A stretch of DNA of 45,737 nucleotides. It comes from an uncultured SAR116 cluster alpha proteobacterium. GTDB taxonomy: Bacteria > Pseudomonadota > Alphaproteobacteria > Puniceispirillales > Puniceispirillaceae. Below are positions 17,876-41,800 of the stretch, one piece after another. How positions within the stretch are numbered: the stretch's first letter is position 1; each line of letters opens with the position of its first letter. Both the position numbers and the translations under genes were made by a program. The notes below the pieces were generated by a model. It did no database searches. It saw nothing but the letters and a program-made list of their open reading frames with translations, and was not told the DNA's origin. The DNA is taken from assembly GCA_902559985.1 (NCBI GenBank), contig CACEJY010000012.1, forward strand, positions 1 to 45,737, in the 5' to 3' direction.

Positions 17876-19021
17876 ATGCGCGCAGCATTTATCTTTCATT
17901 TCCAATTAATATTTCACAGGCGGAGCAGACTGCTGGCCTTTTTTCTAATTAGCTTTCTGGCAGGCAAACCAGCGATGGCCATTAACAGTTGGTGTGCCGA
18001 GCCGGTTTTTGGCGTTTCAAATATTTCAATTGACCAGCGGGCCGAAACCGCATCCATCGCTCGGGATATTGGTGTGCGCAAGGCCGCGGAGCAGGCATTT
18101 TCAACCGTGCTGGACCGGATTCTTTTAACAAATGATGCGCAGCACAAGTTCATGTCATTGCATGATCTCGATGATTTTTCTGATTTTACCCATATCGTTG
18201 AAGAGAAAAATTTAGATCAACGTTATATTGCGACGTTGGACTTTTGTTTTGATGCTGCACGGCTGCGCCAAGCCATGATCACGGCTCAGTTGAGCTGGTC
18301 TGAATTACAAAGCCCGCCCGTTCTAGTTATTCCTATTTGGAGCGGGCCGGATGGAGCACGAGCGTGGCAAAAGGATAATCAGTGGATTGCTGGCTGGCGG
18401 GATGCAGTTGCCGCCTACGATGGACTGTTATCTTTTCGTCAGTTGGATCATAATCTGATTAATGAGAGACAATTCCGTGGTGAGGATCTGCTCCTTGCAA
18501 ACCCGGCCAAGCTTAAACATGCCGCTAGCCTGGTGCGTGCGGAACAGGTTATGTTGGTTGCGGCTTCACTAGATTATGAAGGTTCCAAGCCATTGGTTAC
18601 AATCACCGCACGGTTGTTTGATAAGGTGGGCCAGATGATTACCGATATTCTCTATGGTGATCAGAAGACCCTAGAAAATTTTACTGTGAATGACCTTGAT
18701 ATAATGCGCCGAAAAATTATTGAGAGGATGGATGAAAGCTGGCAGATGGCAAATCTGATTGATGACAGGGAAATTGGATATTTAACAGTATTTTTGCCAG
18801 TGACATCACTGAAAGAATGGGCCAAACGTTTAAGTGCTTTAGATGAAATTGCGGTGATACAAAGCTATGACATTATCACGCTCAATACTCGGGGTGGGCA
18901 ATTGTATTTACGCCTAGCCGGTTCCAAAGAAGCGTTACAAAATGCGCTGTCTGCGCATCGATTGCAGCTTGTTGACTATGGGGATCAGCAACTGATTAGT
19001 GCTAAACCGGAAAATGGTTGA
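17876..19021 (+). CDS. DUF2066 family exported protein
   Basis: This 381-residue protein has a hydrophobic N-terminal segment (about residues 19-36, LLAFFLISFLAGKPAMA) ending in a likely signal-peptidase site. The downstream sequence RDIGVRKAAEQAFSTVLDRIL resembles the start of DUF2066 proteins, which occur beside purM and hda genes in Proteobacteria. The function is unknown; the protein is probably periplasmic or membrane attached. It is followed 85 bp later by hdaA on the same strand, as usual for this neighbourhood. Confidence 0.75.
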   Translation: MRAAFIFHFQLIFHRRSRLLAFFLISFLAGKPAMAINSWCAEPVFGVSNISIDQRAETASIARDIGVRKAAEQAFSTVLDRILLTNDAQHKFMSLHDLDDFSDFTHIVEEKNLDQRYIATLDFCFDAARLRQAMITAQLSWSELQSPPVLVIPIWSGPDGARAWQKDNQWIAGWRDAVAAYDGLLSFRQLDHNLINERQFRGEDLLLANPAKLKHAASLVRAEQVMLVAASLDYEGSKPLVTITARLFDKVGQMITDILYGDQKTLENFTVNDLDIMRRKIIERMDESWQMANLIDDREIGYLTVFLPVTSLKEWAKRLSALDEIAVIQSYDIITLNTRGGQLYLRLAGSKEALQNALSAHRLQLVDYGDQQLISAKPENG

Positions 19022-19106: not shown

Positions 19107-19769
19107 ATGAAACAATTACCGCTTGAATTACCATTTCGCCAGTTGGCAGGTCGCGATGATTTCATAATCAGTGATTGTAACGCCCTGGCTTTGGCGTCAA
19201 TAGATCAATGGCCGAATTGGCGGGGCAGCTACAGGGCCCTTAATATTGTTGGTCCATCAGGGGCAGGAAAATCACACCTTGCGGCAATCTGGCGGTCATT
19301 GGCCCAACACAGCCAAAGAGTAACAGGGTTGGCGGCAGGCCAGCGGTTGCCAAATCCTGCATTTTATGTGTTGGATGATGTGGCCAATTCCCGGGCTTGG
19401 GATGAGGAGGCGCTTTTTCATTGCTTTAACCGTTGTGCCAGCAAGAATGGTGGTATTCTGCTGCTGTCGCAAATGCCGGTTGGACAAATGGACTGGCAAT
19501 TGCCTGATTTGCGTTCGCGTATGCGCGCAGTTAATTTAGCCCGAATTGATTTGCCTGATGATAATTTGTTATTTGCGCTGTTAAATAAATATTTTGCCGA
19601 TCGTCAAGTGATGGCGCCACCAGCAACGCTATCCTATCTCGTTAAACGTATGGAGAGGTCATTCACCGCTGTTCCTAGGTTGGCTGCCGCTCTTGATCGT
19701 CGGTCGATAGCGGAAAAAAAACCATTATCAATCGCGTTGGCGCGCAATGTCCTTGATGAACTATCGTAA
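19107..19769 (+). CDS. hdaA: DnaA-related regulator HdaA (Hda family)
   Basis: This 220-residue AAA+ protein resembles the DnaA ATPase core but lacks the C-terminal DNA-binding domain IV. The Walker A motif GPSGAGKSH lies near residues 49-57, Walker B-like YVLDDVANS near 88-96, and a sensor-type SRMRAV segment follows. Hda proteins work with the DNA clamp to promote ATP hydrolysis by DnaA and so prevent re-initiation. The N-terminal QLPLELPF contains a clamp-binding-like QLxLxF motif, as expected. It follows the DUF2066 gene. Confidence 0.88.
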   Translation: MKQLPLELPFRQLAGRDDFIISDCNALALASIDQWPNWRGSYRALNIVGPSGAGKSHLAAIWRSLAQHSQRVTGLAAGQRLPNPAFYVLDDVANSRAWDEEALFHCFNRCASKNGGILLLSQMPVGQMDWQLPDLRSRMRAVNLARIDLPDDNLLFALLNKYFADRQVMAPPATLSYLVKRMERSFTAVPRLAAALDRRSIAEKKPLSIALARNVLDELS

Positions 19770-21094: not shown

Positions 21095-21958
21095 TTGATT
21101 TACCACATTACAATTCCCACTTCTACCAGGATGGTTTTAAATCTTTATATCAGTGGATCAATGGCGGTCGCGGCCAGATTAGCGATATTGGTTGCTATCT
21201 CTTTCGTATCAGTCGGGTCAGCATTTTGCGCAACAGTAACTCCGCACAGAGCATTTTACGAGATGCAGCTGGGCCATGCTTACCAAAACTCAAACGTGCA
21301 GGCTGTGATTGGTCGATCCGCATTCACTCTAAGCCGCGATTGCAGCGGTTGGCAATCAAATGAAGATTATGTGATTGAGTTTCAAGGAAAAGAGGGAGAC
21401 ACAAATCGTATTATATCGCGATTTGAGTCGTGGGAGTCCAATGCAGGCGACATGTACAGCTTTGAGATCAGTGAGCAAAGCAGTTTTCAAGCAAAAAAAG
21501 ACTTTAACGGCTATGCCATCGTAACTTCTGAGGCAGGGAATGCGTATTTCTCAATAGCAGATGACTTACCGATGAAACTGCCTGCTGATACCTATTTCCC
21601 CATGCGGCATTTGAATGCCATCATTGATGGAGCGAAAAAAGGTAAAACAATAATCTCAGCGTCTGTCTTTACGGGAGCTGATCCCGATGATGCGCTGCTT
21701 GCCACTAACACGGTAATTGGCAGCTGGAAGATCGAGGCCCCAGCGGCGCGCCTGGGGAAGTTCGGTCAAAAAGGATATTGGCCGGTTCAAACCGCATACT
21801 TTAAGCCAGCGGCAAAAGCGGCAGAGCCTGAATATGAGATCAATTATTCAATGCAGTCCAATGGAGTTGTTCGCCGTTACGTCATTGATTACGGTGATTT
21901 TACTATTATTGCCGAGCTAATGAAGTTGGAAGCGCTCACCGCACCCAATTGCCCATAA
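21095..21958 (+). CDS. eipB: EipB-like cell envelope protein (DUF1849)
   Basis: The 287-residue protein begins with a signal peptide (ARLAILVAISFVSVGSAFCA) followed by TPHRAFYEMQLGHAY, the usual mature start of DUF1849/EipB proteins. EipB of Brucella is a periplasmic beta-spiral protein that supports envelope integrity and binds a TPR partner. Two conserved cysteines, one in RDCSGW and one at the extreme C-terminus (PNCP), would form the family disulfide. Start choice among upstream ATG/ATT codons is uncertain; the Met in GSMAVAARLAIL gives a compact signal peptide. Confidence 0.82.
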   Translation: MIYHITIPTSTRMVLNLYISGSMAVAARLAILVAISFVSVGSAFCATVTPHRAFYEMQLGHAYQNSNVQAVIGRSAFTLSRDCSGWQSNEDYVIEFQGKEGDTNRIISRFESWESNAGDMYSFEISEQSSFQAKKDFNGYAIVTSEAGNAYFSIADDLPMKLPADTYFPMRHLNAIIDGAKKGKTIISASVFTGADPDDALLATNTVIGSWKIEAPAARLGKFGQKGYWPVQTAYFKPAAKAAEPEYEINYSMQSNGVVRRYVIDYGDFTIIAELMKLEALTAPNCP

Positions 21959-22002
21959 CCAAAGTCGAGGAACTTGGCTTTGTTAGTTTCTTCGGTGGTA
22001 CT

Positions 22003-22896
22003 TTATGATGCTACTAGCCAGGCCGCGCCCTGTGCCAATGCAAATGGGACGTTGCTGGCTTGGACAAGTTTTGTTTCGTTGCGCTCGATCAATAAATAGC
22101 CTGGCCATTTGCGCGGCACATTTAAATACAGCCGGTTCAACTCGGCAATTCGCCCACCAAGAACAAAAACGTCAGGGTCAAACATATTGATGATTGCGGC
22201 CGTAGTACGGCCTATTCTATCATCCAGTACTTGCAAAACGCTGGAAGCGACCAGATCGCTGGTGTCGGCCGCATCGGCAATTGCCTCAATATCTAATTTC
22301 GTCTGGGTGATGTTGAAATATTCATTTTCCAGCCCACCAAGTGACAAAAACTCTTCAAGACAGCCATTACGCCCACACCAACAATCTCGCCCATCAAGTT
22401 CATGAGGGACCGGCCAAGCCAGAGGCATGTGACCCCATTCCCCGACAATATTATTCGCGCCACGCCAGAGTTTTTGGCCAAAAGTTACCCCACCATACAC
22501 ATGGTTATCCAGAAAGAGGCAGCATGTTACTTTACTCTGCTGGGCTTTGCCAAAGCAGCTTTCATATAGGGCGAGAGCTTGCCCTGGACTTGCCAAAACA
22601 ACTGGGCGGCCCAGACTGGCTTGTAGATTGGTCTTCATATCGACCGAGGCAAGGCGGCCAAGGCCGTCATGCGGTGATGTTTTGTTAATAAAGCTAGTTT
22701 GCACGCTGATGCCGACAGTCTGATTTAGACTAGGGTTATTGCGGCTTGCCATGTCAACAAGGGCTGTGCAGCTTTTTAGAAGAGAGGGTACGCCGTCTTC
22801 TTCGAGAGGGTAGCTTTTTTGCCAAATAAAATCACTGCTATTTGTGACGATGGCGGCGTCAATCAAGCTATTTTGAATCGATAGTCCTAGATGCAT
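22003..22896 (-). CDS. ROK family protein, probably lacking sugar kinase activity
   Basis: The C-terminal half is clearly ROK: GEWGHMPLAWP supplies the zinc-ligand His, CWCGRNGCLEEFL the three Cys ligands, and INMFDPDVFVLGGRI the late strand motif. The N-terminal phosphate loop, normally DxGGT, reads LGLSIQNSLID. The catalytic NDAN-type motif reads ASPGQA, and the GTGxGGG loop reads LDNHVYGGV. The fold is therefore probably retained while catalytic and ATP-binding residues are lost. It could be a regulator or a binding protein. It has no DNA-binding helix-turn-helix, so it is not a typical NagC/XylR repressor. Confidence 0.8.
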   Translation of the reverse strand: MHLGLSIQNSLIDAAIVTNSSDFIWQKSYPLEEDGVPSLLKSCTALVDMASRNNPSLNQTVGISVQTSFINKTSPHDGLGRLASVDMKTNLQASLGRPVVLASPGQALALYESCFGKAQQSKVTCCLFLDNHVYGGVTFGQKLWRGANNIVGEWGHMPLAWPVPHELDGRDCWCGRNGCLEEFLSLGGLENEYFNITQTKLDIEAIADAADTSDLVASSVLQVLDDRIGRTTAAIINMFDPDVFVLGGRIAELNRLYLNVPRKWPGYLLIERNETKLVQASNVPFALAQGAAWLVAS

Positions 22897-22923: not shown

Positions 22924-23091
22924 CTATTTAATCTTTGATTCGCGAAAAATGACGTGCTTGCGAGCGCGTGGGTCATACTTCTTTAGTTCTAATTTTTCTG
23001 GCTTGGTACGCGGATTTTTTTTTGTGACGTAAAAATAGCCAGTGTCAGCGGTGCTTACGAGTTTTATTTGTAGGGTCGCGGGCTTCGCCAT
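22924..23091 (-). CDS. rpmG: 50S ribosomal protein bL33
   Basis: The frame encodes 55 residues, [18 protein letters not shown] followed by [10 protein letters not shown], and ends [19 protein letters not shown]. This is bL33 of the Cys-free type, a small basic large-subunit protein near the E site. An AGGAG site lies 8-9 bp before the ATG. It stands alone between rnr and the ROK gene, as rpmG often does in alphaproteobacteria. Confidence 0.94.
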
Positions 23092-35785: not shown

Positions 35786-36193
35786 TTAAGCTCTGGATTG
35801 GATGAAGGAGTAAACGGCTACACAAAACAAAATAAGTATCGAAACAGTCAGGACAGCTCTAAATAATTTGAGTAAGGCTTTGCCGAAAGAAACGGCAAAC
35901 GATTCCTTCTCAACTTTTTCGGTTTCCTCAATATTTAGTAATTGAATCGCACGCAGCTGCTCATCTTCAATAATCGAGTTCATTGCTATCTCATCTTTCA
36001 GCGCCTCGACTCTCAACTTTATATATAAAGCTTTTGCTTTTTTTTCCTCACCCTCAGTCTTAGTTAGTGCTTGACCCCAAGTGCCTTCTTTTCGTTCATC
36101 ACTGTTGATTTCGTGCATTACATATTCAAAAAGCTTTGTTTCTAGCATCCTTTTAGCAACTGCATTTTTGTCATTTCGTCTGAACAATCCCAT
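35786..36193 (-). CDS. Hypothetical protein with C-terminal membrane anchor (islet cargo)
   Basis: ATG at 36193, preceded by an AAGGAT site, gives 135 residues starting MGLFRRNDKNAVAKRMLE. The frame could extend to 36253, but those residues look non-coding. The protein is charged and helical with a segment KAKALYIKLRVEALKDE, which I recall from short helical regions in various proteobacterial membrane proteins. One C-terminal membrane span (about residues 111-130, VLTVSILILFCVAVYSFI) follows. It is probably cytoplasmic-facing and tail anchored. No catalytic motif is seen and the function is unknown. Confidence 0.7.
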   Translation of the reverse strand: MGLFRRNDKNAVAKRMLETKLFEYVMHEINSDERKEGTWGQALTKTEGEEKKAKALYIKLRVEALKDEIAMNSIIEDEQLRAIQLLNIEETEKVEKESFAVSFGKALLKLFRAVLTVSILILFCVAVYSFIQSRA

Positions 36194-36617
36194 GGGGGCA
36201 CATCCTTTGCTCGGTAAACACAAGGAATGCCTACAGAACAATGAGTTATCCAAGTGTATCTCTAAGGAGTTGGTGCGGCCGAGATGAAGTTCTACGCTTC
36301 AATACTGCACCAGTCTCACTGCTAAATAAGCAATAGCTCCACTTTAGGATACTGTGAGTCACTGTCAACAGGCACATTTGGTATACTCTGTGTACACCAA
36401 GGTTTCATGTACTCTTAAAGAACTCTCTGAGAACACTGATACTCAGCACCCCTTAAGGAACTCCTATAGGTCTCTAGAGAGTCTCTGGTGTGTCTGATGG
36501 TGGGGGTGTGGAACTCACTTGGGGTACCCTGTGGAGAGGGGTGGTTTGCACATTTGATTGGTTCATCTAACCTGATGGTCATATATTTAAATTGAACACA
36601 AAAAGATGGGATAAAAT
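36194..36617. other. Non-coding region within the islet, rich in short inverted repeats
   Basis: No gene is seen in 424 bp between two divergent islet genes. It contains an operator-like inverted repeat (36378-36400), a CTGAG/CTCAG hairpin (36427-36446), the palindrome TCTCTAGAGA (36472-36481) and a near-duplicate pair CTTAAAGAACTC / CTTAAGGAACTC around 36415 and 36454. It likely holds both divergent promoters and perhaps a replication or control site. Confidence 0.45.
36378..36400. promoter_or_regulatory. Operator-like inverted repeat in the islet
   Basis: TTGGTATAC (36378-36386), a 5-bp spacer, then GTACACCAA (36392-36400) form a 9-bp inverted repeat with one mismatch. It lies between the divergent membrane-protein and OGFr genes and would suit a dimeric repressor. 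No regulator is encoded in the islet. Confidence 0.4.
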
Positions 36618-37064
36618 ATGGCTTCGCTTTGTAGTTTTCTTACTGGACATGAAACCAACAGCAGTGGTTGGCTCCTATCTCATGTTTGGAAATTCAACGA
36701 TACGCAGATAGAAAACACCCACACATTTATTCAATGGGTGTTTCCAACGAACGAGGCGAGCAGAGCTATGCCTGGGTCGCCATTGCTCGATGAAGAGGAA
36801 ATTGCAGAAATACAAAATAGTGAGCAAGCAAAACAAAATTTAAGTAAATCTGCTGATTGGTATTTTAATTTTCTCAGAAGAAATAGCTTTTGGCGAAAAC
36901 CTCACGACCATAATCATCTCCGTATTACTCGCGTGATAAAATCATTGCGTCTTTTATGTGGAGATGATGAGGCTGATTACTTTAAAGAACAATTCTGGCA
37001 ATTGCTTGGAACTGACATTTCTCAAATTCCGTCAAAGACAATTGAATATTGGGAGGATGCCTAA
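36618..37064 (+). CDS. OGFr-domain protein (opioid growth factor receptor-related)
   Basis: This 148-residue protein matches the conserved region of the OGFr_N family (Pfam PF04664). Key segments are ENTHTFIQWVFPT (residues 32-44), the Pro/Leu-rich PGSPLLDEEEIAEI, and HNHLRITRVIKSLRLL near residue 98. The family is named after a vertebrate receptor but is widespread in bacteria, where its role is unknown; the name does not imply opioid binding. No signal peptide or membrane segment is seen, so it is probably cytosolic. The ribosome binding site is weak. The gene converges on the RpoC-like fusion with a 4-bp stop overlap, in the tRNA-Ser islet. Confidence 0.8.
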   Translation: MASLCSFLTGHETNSSGWLLSHVWKFNDTQIENTHTFIQWVFPTNEASRAMPGSPLLDEEEIAEIQNSEQAKQNLSKSADWYFNFLRRNSFWRKPHDHNHLRITRVIKSLRLLCGDDEADYFKEQFWQLLGTDISQIPSKTIEYWEDA

Positions 37065-37993
37065 TATGCATCTTGCAGAATGATATTGGCTAAAATATCA
37101 CCCGGCTGCACCTCCTCTTTCTCATCACGACTTATGTGGCATCCAATCGGCAAGCTATAGGTGGCCGGGCTACCATCAGAGAGCACTTTAACTTGACCAT
37201 CGGTTGAGAGAATTTTGATATGTGGTTTTAGTGAATTTGATTGGTTATCACTAAGAACTGTCCTCGAGGTTATGCCCGTAGCATCGCAATATTTGGTCTC
37301 TAGAGTTTGCCCCTCAATTAAGTCGAAATATGCCACAAAACCACTGGTTTCAGCGATGATTTTTTGAAAATATGGGTCGAAGCTAGCAAGTTTCTGACCT
37401 TTTGCTACACTGTCTCCATCTTGAAATAATAATTCATCCCCATACATCAACCGATGATGCTCCAGAATTTCATAGTCTGCGTCTACAATCATGATTTGTG
37501 CAACGTGGTTACTCAATATTTTTACATCATCACTTCGTTCAAAAACATCAACATTGAATGTTTCGATTTTCCCATTACTCAAAGCTTCAATATGCCTAGA
37601 TGGATTTAATCTAAGCTGCCATTTTCGGTATTTTTCTGAAATGTATCTCTGCTCACTATCTGGCACACCAGCCATTTTTGCAGTCCATCTATCAGAATCT
37701 ATTTCTACCCAGTCGCACTCACCATAGGCCAGCCAAACTTCAGGCCCCGTCATTATAATGCAGTAGTCTTTCCAGATTTGCTTTCCCTGTGGGTCTTCAT
37801 GTATTCCGACCATTCCGTATGATTTTAATTCTTCTTCTATGTCACTATCATCACCCATAGAACCGGTTCTATATAAGTGGTCATCATACCAAAATTGGTG
37901 GTTTTTCTTCCATTCCTCCCAACCACCAGGATATTTTTTTTCAATTGCGTCTCTTCTTACAATTACATTTGAAAATTCAAGCATTACACTCAT
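37061..37993 (-). CDS. Fusion protein: unnamed N-terminal domain plus RNA polymerase beta' SI3-like SBHM domain
   Basis: The 310-residue protein has two parts. Residues 1-107 (MSVMLEFSNVIVRRDAIEKK, YPGGWEEW, ECDWVEID) resemble a family of short uncharacterised bacterial proteins that normally stand alone. Residues about 137-305 read like the sandwich-barrel-hybrid-motif region of RNA polymerase beta' (SI3): GDELLFQDGDSVAKGQKLAS, FDPYFQKIIAETSGFV, DLIEGQT, DATGITSRTVL, LKPHIKILSTDGQ, YSLPIGCHI, VQPGDILANI. In E. coli RpoC the matching text includes WDPHTMPVITEVSGFVRF and LTGLSSLVVLD. The trigger-loop sequence that follows in RpoC is absent, so it cannot be a polymerase remnant. A good AAGGA site precedes the ATG. 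It may bind RNAP-associated factors; this is inference. Confidence 0.8.
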   Translation of the reverse strand: MSVMLEFSNVIVRRDAIEKKYPGGWEEWKKNHQFWYDDHLYRTGSMGDDSDIEEELKSYGMVGIHEDPQGKQIWKDYCIIMTGPEVWLAYGECDWVEIDSDRWTAKMAGVPDSEQRYISEKYRKWQLRLNPSRHIEALSNGKIETFNVDVFERSDDVKILSNHVAQIMIVDADYEILEHHRLMYGDELLFQDGDSVAKGQKLASFDPYFQKIIAETSGFVAYFDLIEGQTLETKYCDATGITSRTVLSDNQSNSLKPHIKILSTDGQVKVLSDGSPATYSLPIGCHISRDEKEEVQPGDILANIILQDAY

Positions 37994-38291
37994 GGAAAAT
38001 CCTTCTAAAAGGCAGAGGGGGTCTGTGGCTACCGCGACGTTGACCTATTGTCATTATAAAGTTTCTGCCTGAAACAAATAACAATAACAGGCCAATGAAT
38101 GTTACTAAATCTAAACTCCACTCCATCCCTTATTTCTTCACTTTTGTACCAATCTTCGGACATCTGACTCACCAAAATCATGACTTCTAAATTGTTCTTT
38201 TTATTGAAGCTATCAGGAGATGTGTCGGTTGAGTAGGGGGAGTATGTTCTATATTATTTTGAACAACGGGTTTGTGACCGTATTTTGTCCG

Positions 38292-38352
38292 TGGTGCAAA
38301 GCTGACACATCCTGACACACTGTGACACAACGTGACACAAGTTCTGGTGCAA
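38292..38352 (-). repeat. Paired TGGTGCAA sites at the right end of the islet
   Basis: TGGTGCAA at 38292-38299 and 38345-38352 are reverse complements of the TTGCACCA pair near the left end. They flank the TGACACA array. A related TTGCAACC lies just beyond at 38358. This is consistent with arm-type integrase sites. Confidence 0.5.
38303..38339 (+). repeat. Four TGACACA boxes phased at exactly 10 bp
   Basis: TGACACA begins at 38303, 38313, 38323 and 38333, with varied 3-bp spacers. A 10-bp period puts all four on one face of the helix, typical of cooperative binding by an excisionase-like or iteron-binding protein. It lies 54 bp from the right attachment repeat. Confidence 0.6.
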
Positions 38353-38392
38353 CTCTCTTGCAACCAATTGTATTAATTAATAAATTTCGGCA

Positions 38393-38407
38393 TCCCCTCC
38401 GCCATTT
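38393..38407 (+). repeat. Right attachment-site repeat (attR core)
   Basis: TCCCCTCCGCCATTT is an exact copy of the tRNA-Ser 3' end at 35651-35665. No other tRNA sequence surrounds it, so it is a stand-alone duplicate, as expected at the distal end of an integrated element. Confidence 0.75.
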
Positions 38408-38813
38408 CTTTTCATTCCCAAAAGTTGTCTATTTTCCAATGCTCTTGAAAATATTGTGGTCGCTGAGGCAGTTCCCGTGCCAAGGTTAAAACCGCTGTGC
38501 TTTGATTGGTGGCGCTTCTTCCAAATGCAAGATCACCTGCCTAACATCCAATGAATTTATTTTTTCCGTCGAATTTGGTTAGTGCATCCCTATCAGTGGT
38601 AAAATTTTTTTAAATGGTTTGTTAATCATGTTTCCTGCCGCCATCTTTTGAGGTTTTTTTGCGAAGTGTTTAGAAGTTTTAGCCAAGTATGCATCTTACG
38701 CTCATTTGGTGCATATTTGCATTTAATTATAAAAGTTATTAAAAAAACACTGGGAACCGGTCGTTATATACACTTGAATACAGCGCCTTCTTGCTGTTAG
38801 GAGATATGACTCG

Positions 38814-41800
38814 GTGCTAGCCAGGCTCGCCATTTTATGTGTGTTGCAGCTGTTTGCGCATTTGTTCAATGCAAATGCGGCAAATGCGAGCTGCTATTCT
38901 GCTGACTCGAACACTATTGGCACTGCCAGCCCTTGTTTGGGCATGCTGATCGTCGATCAGACGATGTTAAATACCGCCGTTGCAAACGGTAGTTATGCGA
39001 TAACTGGACCTGACTCAAACAGTTACACATTTGGGAATTCTGCTCGAAATATCTTCACTGGACAAATGACCAGTATGTATGGCTTGTTTCGTGACAAAGC
39101 ATCATTCAATGAAGACATTGGTTACTGGGATGTGAGCAATGTTACAGATATGACGAATATGTTTCGTGGCGCGTCATCTTTCAACAAGAACATCGGTTCT
39201 TGGGATGTGGGTAAGGTTGAGTATCTTGACTCAACGTTCCAGGGAGCAACGGCATTCAATCAAAATTTGAATTCATGGAACGTCTCAAATGTAACCAATT
39301 TGGGAAGCACTTTTAAATCAGCAACATCTTTTAATGGTGATATAAGTTCTTGGAACACAAGCAAGGTTGATTATACTTGGTATACGTTCCAAGGAGCCAC
39401 ATCCTTCAATCAAAACATTTCTTATTGGAACGTGGCTAATGTCTCAAACATGATTTACATGTTTGATGGCGCGACAGCTTTTAATCAGGACTTAACTGGC
39501 TGGGATGTCAGTCGATTTGCATCTCAACCATCCGGCTTTTCCAACAATGCAAGCGCATGGGCGCTGAACAAAAGACCATTGTGGGGCATACCGCAACTGT
39601 CCTCGACTGCACCAGCCGATGGAGCTACAGGTGTTGCCGCAGACGCGAACATAACCTTAACCTTTGGCAAAAATATTCAAGCTGGTAGCGGGTTTATCAA
39701 GCTTTACAAATCTGACAACACTCTTGTGCAGTCCTTTAATATCGCTAGCGCGGCAACCTTCTTGGGTAATGCGGTAAGGGTGAATCCATCGTCGAACCTT
39801 GACTCTCTTCAAAGTTACTATGTGAAGGTTGATGCAACTGCGATTGACGATACAGGTGGTAATTCCTTTCCGGGGATAAACGACACTACAACATTAAATT
39901 TCACTGTTGCTGACGTTGCGGCACCGACGCTCTCATCAAGCTCACCTGCAGACAATGCTACAGGCGTTGCGGTTAGCGCAAACATTGTCCTTACCTTCAA
40001 CGAGAATGTAGTTGCGGGCAGCGGTAATATAACCCTTAAAAAATCATCTGATAATAGCACTGTCCAAGCGATGCCAGTTGATGGTGGAAACGTAACTATA
40101 TCTGGAAATACTGTAACAATAAATCCAACTGCGAACCTTGATTCGTCTCTTGGATATTATCTTCAGATTGCCGCAACAGCTTTAGATGACGCAAGTGGTA
40201 ACTCATACGCGGGTATAAATGATGCTACGACGCTTAACTTCACTGCGGCCGATATAATTGCGCCAGCACTGTCATCAAGTTCTCCAGCAGACAATGCAAC
40301 GGGGATTGGTTCGGCTGCAAATATTACTCTAACTTTTGATGAAAACGTCAAAGTGGGAACAGGAAACATAACATTATTTAAAGCTGACAACTCGCAAGTT
40401 GAAGTATTTAATGTCACGAGTGACGTAAGCGTTTCCGGCGCAGTTGTAACGATAAACCCTACCATTGATTTCCTATCTAATGGTGGCTACTACCTTCATG
40501 TTGCTGCGACTGCAATAGATGATTTGAGTGACAACTCCTACGCTGGTATCTCTGACGCAACAACACTGAATTTTACCGCTGCCGCTGATAACGTTTTACC
40601 CACGCTTGTATCGAGTTCGCCGGCTGACAATGCAACCGGTGTAGCAGCTGGCGCAAACATTGTGCTCACGTTTAATGAGAACGTTGTGGCTGGCAGTGGC
40701 AATATTACGCTAAAAAAATCTTCTGATAATAGCACGGTTCAGGCGATGCCAGTTGGTGGTGGAAATGTTTCCATATCTGGAAACACAGTGACGATTAACC
40801 CAAGTGCTGACCTTCAGTCTTCGGAAGGATATTACCTAGATATAGCAGCGTCAGCGCTTGATGATGCAAGCGGCAATTCATATGGTGGCATCAACAATAG
40901 TGCTACATTAAATTTCACAGCCGCAGATGTTGCGGGACCAACGCTTTCATCAAGTTCGCCAGCTGACAATGCGACAGGTGTGGCAGCTGGTGCAAACATC
41001 GTGCTCACGTTTAATGAGAATGTTGTGGCGGGTAGTGGTAATATCACGCTCAAAAAATCTTCTGATAATAGCACCGTCCAAGCAATGCCAGTAGGTGGCG
41101 CAAACGTCTCTATTTCAGGTGCTGTCGTCACAATTAATCCAACCGCAAACCTAGACTCTTCTGAAGCATATTATGTTCAGATTGCAGCAACTGCGTTTGA
41201 TGATGCTAGTGGCAACTCTTACGCAGGCATAAGCGATACGACGTCACTCAGTTTCACGGCGGCCGATACAGTTGGGCCAACAATGGTGATTACATCAACC
41301 ACCTCTGGAGTTAGCAGTGGGGCGGCAACGAATGATTCCACTATCAACCTCACATTTACTGCAAATGAAGCGGCAACGGGATTTGTTGTAGGTGACATCA
41401 CCGTAGCCGGAGGCTCTTTGAGTAGCTTTGCGACTGTGTCATCAACAGTCTATACAGCAACGTTTACACCGTCTGGAGCAGGTGCAAAGACTATTGATGT
41501 TGCTGCAAATAAATTTACAGATGCAGCTGGCAATAACAACAGCGCTGCAACACAGTTTACATGGAACTATGATAATGTGGCGCCGACAATGGCTATTACG
41601 TCGACAACTTCTGGTGTTAGCAGCGGTTCGACAACTAATGATTCTACTATCAATCTGACATTTACCGCCAGTGAGGCAGCAACAGGATTTGCCGTAGGTG
41701 ATATCACTGTAAACGGAGGCTCTTTGAGCAGCTTTACAGCGGTTTCATCAACAGTCTATACGGCAACATTTACCCCATCCTCTGCTGGTGCCACGACGAT

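Follow-up and report, generated by a model that had tools for sequence, protein, structure and literature searches.

ROK proteins have been described as sugar kinases or as repressors with a helix-turn-helix (HTH), MecR2 is a ROK-fold anti-repressor that regulates by binding protein, and pseudoenzymes are already known as a kind. For the kinases, the sections on the active site assign DxGxT as the ATP motif of GNE kinase, HC3 as its zinc motif and N516, D517, E566, H569 and E588 as its sugar contacts (PMC2742894), and D103 of the ROK fructokinase 3LM9 as the residue that deprotonates the sugar hydroxyl, with E150 roughly corresponding to a residue in the site of another fructokinase (PMC6240065). 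The protein analysed here is a ROK family member that, by its motifs and domain limits, appears to fail both functional classes, kinase and repressor. It is encoded in a stretch of 45,737 nucleotides (the window, contig CACEJY010000012.1) from a SAR116 cluster alphaproteobacterium whose genome is 73% complete:

22003..22896, minus strand: putative pseudokinase of ROK fold, 297 aa, without HTH (open reading frame; PF00480 at 1.6e-39; AlphaFold2 model)

The frame starts with ATG and has zero internal stops, and the PF00480 match covers residues 12-296, nearly the full length, at 136.6 bits versus a curated cut-off of 22.9. The best NCBIfam model was the fructokinase PRK09557, whose cut-off of 443 bits was missed (143.8 bits); three active orthologues of the order also scored below it (359-377 bits), and hence this cut-off alone cannot decide kinase status. 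In phmmer, the closest solved structure was the GlcNAc kinase 4db3 (1.1e-18). A search of the protein for an N-terminal HTH found none: ROK homology begins at residue 3, which leaves no room for an HTH in 297 aa, and the Mlc and NagC models (~400 aa) match only from model positions 88 and 166 onward, respectively. A first-pass annotation of the window had already called this a ROK protein in a long undamaged frame, lacking an HTH and so not a classic ROK repressor, and on each of these points the present results agree with it. Frameshift or assembly damage could be ruled out, as relatives share the same frame and dN/dS is low (see below).

Residues were assigned by aligning the protein with 26 active-type orthologues of the order, and three loops are replaced:

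22867..22881, minus strand: former DxGGT phosphate-binding loop, residues 6-10, now SIQNS (alignment)
22579..22590, minus strand: former NDAN catalytic loop, residues 103-106, now SPGQ, with Pro for the catalytic Asp (alignment)
22489..22509, minus strand: former GTGxGGG loop, residues 130-136, now DNHVYGG (alignment)

The D, G, G and T found at positions 6, 8, 9 and 10 in 26 of 26 active sequences are S6, Q8, N9 and S10 in the window protein, which has no DxGxT ATP loop; S103, P104 and Q106 occupy the N-D-N positions, leaving no catalytic Asp; D130, H132 and Y134 replace three Gly of the GTGxGGG loop; R249 stands where the active sequences have the Gly of the GGG turn; and only G290-A292 is left of the C-terminal GDSSGVRGAA. 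Since the alignments are collinear, displacement of the motifs to elsewhere in the protein was ruled out. By motif, the five GNE sugar contacts would correspond to N103, D104, E153, H156 and E181, and with the published labels the ATP loop and the catalytic Asp are thus missing from the window protein, while three of the five putative sugar contacts (E153, H156 and E181) remain, besides C172, C174 and C179. Among nine scored residues that we chose from the motifs (D6, G8, G9, T/S10, N103, D104, G130, G132 and E153), it keeps two, S10 and E153. The 33 degenerate sequences of the order, as we call those that have lost the active site, keep 0-4 of the nine and the 26 active ones 9, with no sequence in between, so that within the order the loss is all-or-none. 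A further 41 sequences from the class keep 8-9; these remained from 50 loci, the 30 best of a search with the active alignment as query plus 20 of our own choosing, and so give no measure of how frequent degenerate ROK is elsewhere in the class. The residues argue well for a protein that would not carry out ATP-dependent sugar phosphorylation.

The first-pass annotation had remarked that the DxGGT, NDAN and GTGxGGG motifs were all replaced, as the 26 active-type orthologues bear out, and had proposed aligning homologues to see if the loss is shared; it is common to six genera at one syntenic locus. Its description of GEWGH as perfect holds for the window protein but not for the group: position 153 is Glu in 1 of the 33 degenerate sequences, Ala in 11 (including the window's closest relative), Asn in 14, Asp in 5 and Gln in 2, and with the Glu lost in 32 of 33, GEWGH is not a maintained feature of the group.

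The locus itself is well conserved, with two neighbours that recur across the order:

22924..23091, minus strand: rpmG (ribosomal protein L33), the upstream neighbour (sequence and translation)
21095..21958, plus strand: EipB-like gene (PF08904), the convergent downstream neighbour (Pfam match)

In the window, the rpmG stop and the ROK start lie 27 bases apart on the same strand, with no terminator-like site found on the minus strand between the two genes, and a terminator-like stem lies at 21960-21982, between the EipB-like and ROK genes. We searched 136 genomes of the order, 71 of which had a match of some ROK kind, and collected 74 loci with flanks, some genomes being present twice, from two collections. 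rpmG is directly upstream in 69 of the 70 loci with a ROK hit, the remaining one (L039) starting inside the gene at a contig end; topA lies further upstream of rpmG where the contig reaches, as does rnr in families f1 and f2, no rnr hit being found in the four f3 loci. The EipB-like gene follows ROK on the opposite strand, at a distance of ~2 kb in most f2 loci. Of the 20 loci that we chose outside the order, 8 combine rpmG and an EipB-like gene with an active-type ROK gene in the vicinity, separated by intervening genes, and hence the rpmG–ROK–EipB-like arrangement seems old, its original occupant seemingly an active-type kinase. Elsewhere in the window, a 381-aa protein with no Pfam hit (17876-19021, plus strand) is encoded beside a Hda/DnaA-like one that scores just below the Hda_lid and Bac_DnaA cut-offs (19107-19769, plus strand), and relatives of both occur near the ROK locus in families f1 and f3. 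A low-GC stretch (0.40-0.41) at 36001-39000, with a 310-aa ORF without Pfam match (37061-37993, minus strand), is possibly acquired DNA.

Active, dead, broken and deleted states are all found at this locus. Degenerate sequences come from genera g1 (that of the window), g2, g4, g6, g8 and g10, and active ones from genera g3, g7 and g11 and families f2 and f3. One lineage is losing the degenerate gene, which in G030 (contig C7; L124/L066) is broken by two in-frame stops. G009, G043 and the f4 genomes G042, G055 and G059 have no ROK gene at the locus: in G009, from the window's own genus, 493 bases without ROK similarity at E 0.01 separate the EipB and rpmG hits, and in the three f4 genomes rpmG and the EipB-like gene nearly abut. 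In G043, an open frame (L188) lies between rpmG and the EipB-like gene in place of ROK, and we take it to be DNA polymerase IV-like. In 8 of 15 degenerate genomes tested (G002, G008, G010, G031, G036, G024, G028 and G018) the degenerate ROK is the only PF00480 match, and there it therefore serves no other ROK enzyme. Patterns requiring the PRKWPGY or QVLEDRLGR stretch, used to look for degenerate ROK outside the order, returned 37 loci with titles naming SAR116, Puniceispirillum, Alphaproteobacteria, Proteobacteria, Rhodobiaceae or Rhodospirillaceae. The reverse pattern was seen once, in a genome of ~1.2 Mb (L172; G309:C1:858000-869000), whose ROK protein has DLGAS, NDAN, GSGVGGG and GEWGH but no zinc cysteines at the aligned places.

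Three parts of the degenerate protein are conserved by comparison with the rest:

22342..22431, minus strand: zinc loop, residues 156-185, with predicted ligands H156, C172, C174 and C179 (alignment; zinc motif as in GNE)
22603..22638, minus strand: segment 87-98 (LQASLGR), with higher conservation among degenerate than among active proteins (alignment; helix 87-95 in the model)
22093..22134, minus strand: helix 255-268 with PRKWPGY, near-invariant in degenerate and variable in active proteins (alignment; helix 255-267 in the model)

The HC3 motif GH...CxCGxxGCxE is complete in the window (H156, C172, C174, C179 and E181), in line with the intact zinc site that the first-pass annotation had reported, and none of the 33 degenerate and 26 active sequences of the order lacks any of the four ligands of this predicted site. 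Between the two degenerate clades, identity is 35% overall versus 61% in the zinc loop, 57% in helix 214-241, 64% in segment 255-268 and 51% in segment 87-98; between f1 active sequences and f2, at 56% overall, segments 255-268 and 87-98 are 58% and 32% identical. K263, W264, P265 and Q92 are present in all 33 degenerate sequences and in 22, 24, 11 and 12, respectively, of the 26 active ones. In an AlphaFold2 model from a 16-row degenerate alignment (pLDDT 87.4, pTM 0.88), Foldseek and VIA-align placed the protein with ROK kinases, the best VIA-align row being the GlcNAc kinase 7p7w (Z 33.0, rmsd 2.7, 293 aligned residues), and the ROK regulators Lmo0178 (5f7r), MecR2 (4ija) and Mlc (3bp8_B and 1z6r) scored Z 28.2, 26.1, 25.0 and 23.9, respectively. 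Given the confidence of the model and its alignment to ROK kinases, the fold is predicted to be whole. GNE dimerises through its C-lobe, the zinc motif contributing some of the contact, in the portion of its description that concerns the dimer (PMC2742894), and by analogy a dimer is likely here too.

Selection on the gene was assessed from Nei-Gojobori dN/dS, which for ROK had a median of 0.133 (range 0.05-0.19) over 12 degenerate pairs and of 0.107 (range 0.03-0.15) over 11 active pairs, with 0.162 for the window versus L031 and medians of 0.06-0.13 for neighbouring genes in degenerate genomes. Relative to the dN of rnd and rnr, that of ROK was 1- to 3-fold in most degenerate pairs, and no higher than theirs in most active pairs. 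Low dN/dS together with raised dN relative to rnd and rnr indicates that the degenerate ROK is under purifying selection and is kept as a protein, with somewhat relaxed constraint. Recent decay, true for G030, was ruled out for the group, and the earlier proposal of a maintained pseudokinase rather than a decaying gene gains support from the low median dN/dS, the spread over six genera and the intact predicted fold. Judged from sequence, the protein is a pseudoenzyme: a homologue of enzymes without the essential catalytic residues that is maintained by selection.

The explanation that we favour, and consider reasonably probable, is that an orthologue of an alphaproteobacterial ROK sugar kinase (Mak/NagK-like) lost its ATP loop, catalytic base and part of its sugar contacts and was retained as a non-catalytic, zinc-stabilised and probably protein-binding pseudoenzyme. 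ROK catalysis would have been lost where another kinase, Glk, covered the reaction, and the gene would have been retained because of a non-catalytic role, either pre-existing or newly acquired. That role might be carried by the zinc loop, helix 214-241 and segments 87-98 and 255-268, and would most likely consist in binding another protein, with the zinc-stabilised dimer acting as a scaffold or regulator and not as an enzyme. Against this explanation counts that the gene is dispensable, given the five genomes without it and the broken copy in G030.

The 136 genomes were also searched for Glk (PF02685). Among species-tree genomes at least 90% complete it is present in 15 of 16 degenerate versus 2 of 15 active genomes, and across all 60 species-tree loci in 26 of 34 degenerate versus 6 of 26 active ones (a table that leaves out G016, which is degenerate, and G007, whose gene is cut by a contig end, both with Glk), though on the tree this association amounts to two independent contrasts and cannot reach significance. 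All five genomes without ROK at the locus have Glk. These data hint weakly that ROK catalysis was lost after redundancy with Glk. Against this, no Glk was found in the window's own genome, its closest relative G013 (80% complete) or G008 (99%), all of them degenerate. Glk is also a possible partner of the degenerate ROK, but other partners would be needed as well, given the degenerate genomes in which no Glk was found. In the Glk tree, which has some very long branches, g4 and g10 (with g5) group separately from most g1 rows, and also from a g2/g6/g8 group that contains in addition two f2 rows and one g1 row; the Glk of L204 (G054), L205 (G043) and L211 (G014) fall within this g2/g6/g8 group, which suggests transfer of Glk within the order. 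PfkB sugar kinases as a replacement were uninformative, with matches in 32 of 32 genomes tested. In the part of the report on its carbon sources, gluconate but not glucose supports growth of SAR116 strain IMCC1322, whose metabolism favours gluconeogenesis (PMC11813361).

An alternative that concerns history only, and is compatible with the pseudoenzyme explanation, is that there was one loss event, or one gene passed between clades. In the ROK tree (59 of 63 unique rows, after exclusion of L131, another ROK, L123 and L128, at contig ends, and the broken L066), all degenerate rows form one clade (100/99), which persists (98/97) without 64 columns fixed in active and free in degenerate sequences, and D130, Q106 and L108 are common to both degenerate clades (Asp at 130 in 26 of 33 sequences, Gln at 106 in 20 of 33). 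Forcing the species grouping on the ROK data is 22 lnL units worse (p 0.005), or 13.5 on the reduced columns (p 0.048), in topology tests that, like their counterparts below, used hand-thinned sets of 42 and 32 rows. However, in a quick LG+G4 tree of seven neighbouring genes, g4 and g10 group with the active g3, g7 and g11, and a single clade of all degenerate genera is rejected by these linked genes (lnL 149 lower), and by topA (p 0.0005) and rnr (p 0.0015) alone, but not by four smaller genes (p 0.11); freed columns can pull degenerate rows together. We give a single loss a substantial chance, somewhat below even, but consider two losses more likely, the grouping in the ROK tree then being an effect of freed columns. 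A bolder version, possible but doubtful, is that the sugar kinase of this locus was inactivated independently in two SAR116 lineages, both of which went on using the protein in regulation or as a scaffold, stabilised by zinc and with new constraint on its surface (the LQASLGR and PRKWPGY helices). If true, this would point to a hidden non-catalytic function of alphaproteobacterial ROK kinases, possibly also in the active orthologues; its target might be Glk or a partner linked to the rpmG operon.

Two other explanations leave the old cleft in use. The protein could be a sugar sensor without HTH, binding sugar in the old site and relaying the signal to a protein, comparable to Mlc stripped of DNA binding and reduced to its ROK domain, as would fit the retention of E153, H156 and E181 in the window and the structural match to Mlc and to the ROK repressor Lmo0178. 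Yet the degenerate sequences lose E153 in 32, N103 in 27, D104 in 27 and often E181 (14) of 33 cases, which makes a group-wide sugar site unlikely, and we regard this explanation as improbable. Still less do we expect an active enzyme with a remodelled site, using another phosphate donor or catalysing some other reaction in the ROK cleft. The predicted fold is complete, the window has the same three sugar contacts, and D130 and Q106 recur across both degenerate clades, but Glu is kept at 153 in a single degenerate sequence, cleft loops 99-112 and 123-140 have no new residue conserved in both clades by alignment, and in no degenerate group are the former active-site positions less variable than the rest. 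Across the 34 positions that are fixed in active sequences but lost from both degenerate clades, mean entropy is 0.07-0.08 for active groups and 0.66-1.12 for degenerate ones, the latter values slightly exceeding those of the other positions in these groups, and at 18 positions kept everywhere, zinc ligands among them, it is 0-0.11. That the gene is a relic drifting before deletion, with catalysis gone, is very unlikely despite the two stops in G030, the five genomes lacking it and its faster evolution relative to rnr and rnd than active ROK in most pairs, given that dN/dS is low in all 12 degenerate pairs, that none of the 33 degenerate rows lacks the zinc ligands, K263, W264 or P265, and that open frames occur throughout six genera.

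In its favoured form, as a zinc-stabilised pseudoenzyme, an HTH-less, active-site-dead ROK protein under selection over six genera would fit neither described ROK class, and among open-access papers, by titles or abstract openings, nothing was found on an HTH-less dead ROK protein. Because a single locus of one order presents the gene as active-type, dead, broken or deleted, the group offers a natural experiment for non-catalytic functions of sugar kinases. Automatic annotation by ROK profile could label the degenerate proteins as fructokinases and thus place a false reaction in metabolic models of marine bacteria.

Compared with known systems, the protein is nearest to the kinases Mak and NagK (PRK09557 and PRK13310), with which it shares its best NCBIfam model, a collinear fold and the zinc loop, but unlike them it has no ATP loop, catalytic Asp, GTGxGGG loop or C-terminal GDSSG. 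The repressors NagC and Mlc have the same fold and already put it to regulatory use, whereas the window protein lacks their N-terminal HTH and has 297 aa against models of ~400. MecR2 (4ija; Z 26.1) also has the same fold, but a longer chain (363 aa in the entry) with 18% identity to the window protein. Glk (PF02685), finally, is a distant structural relative (1sz2, Z 23.4) and a possible functional replacement, but belongs to a non-ROK family and is encoded elsewhere in the genome.
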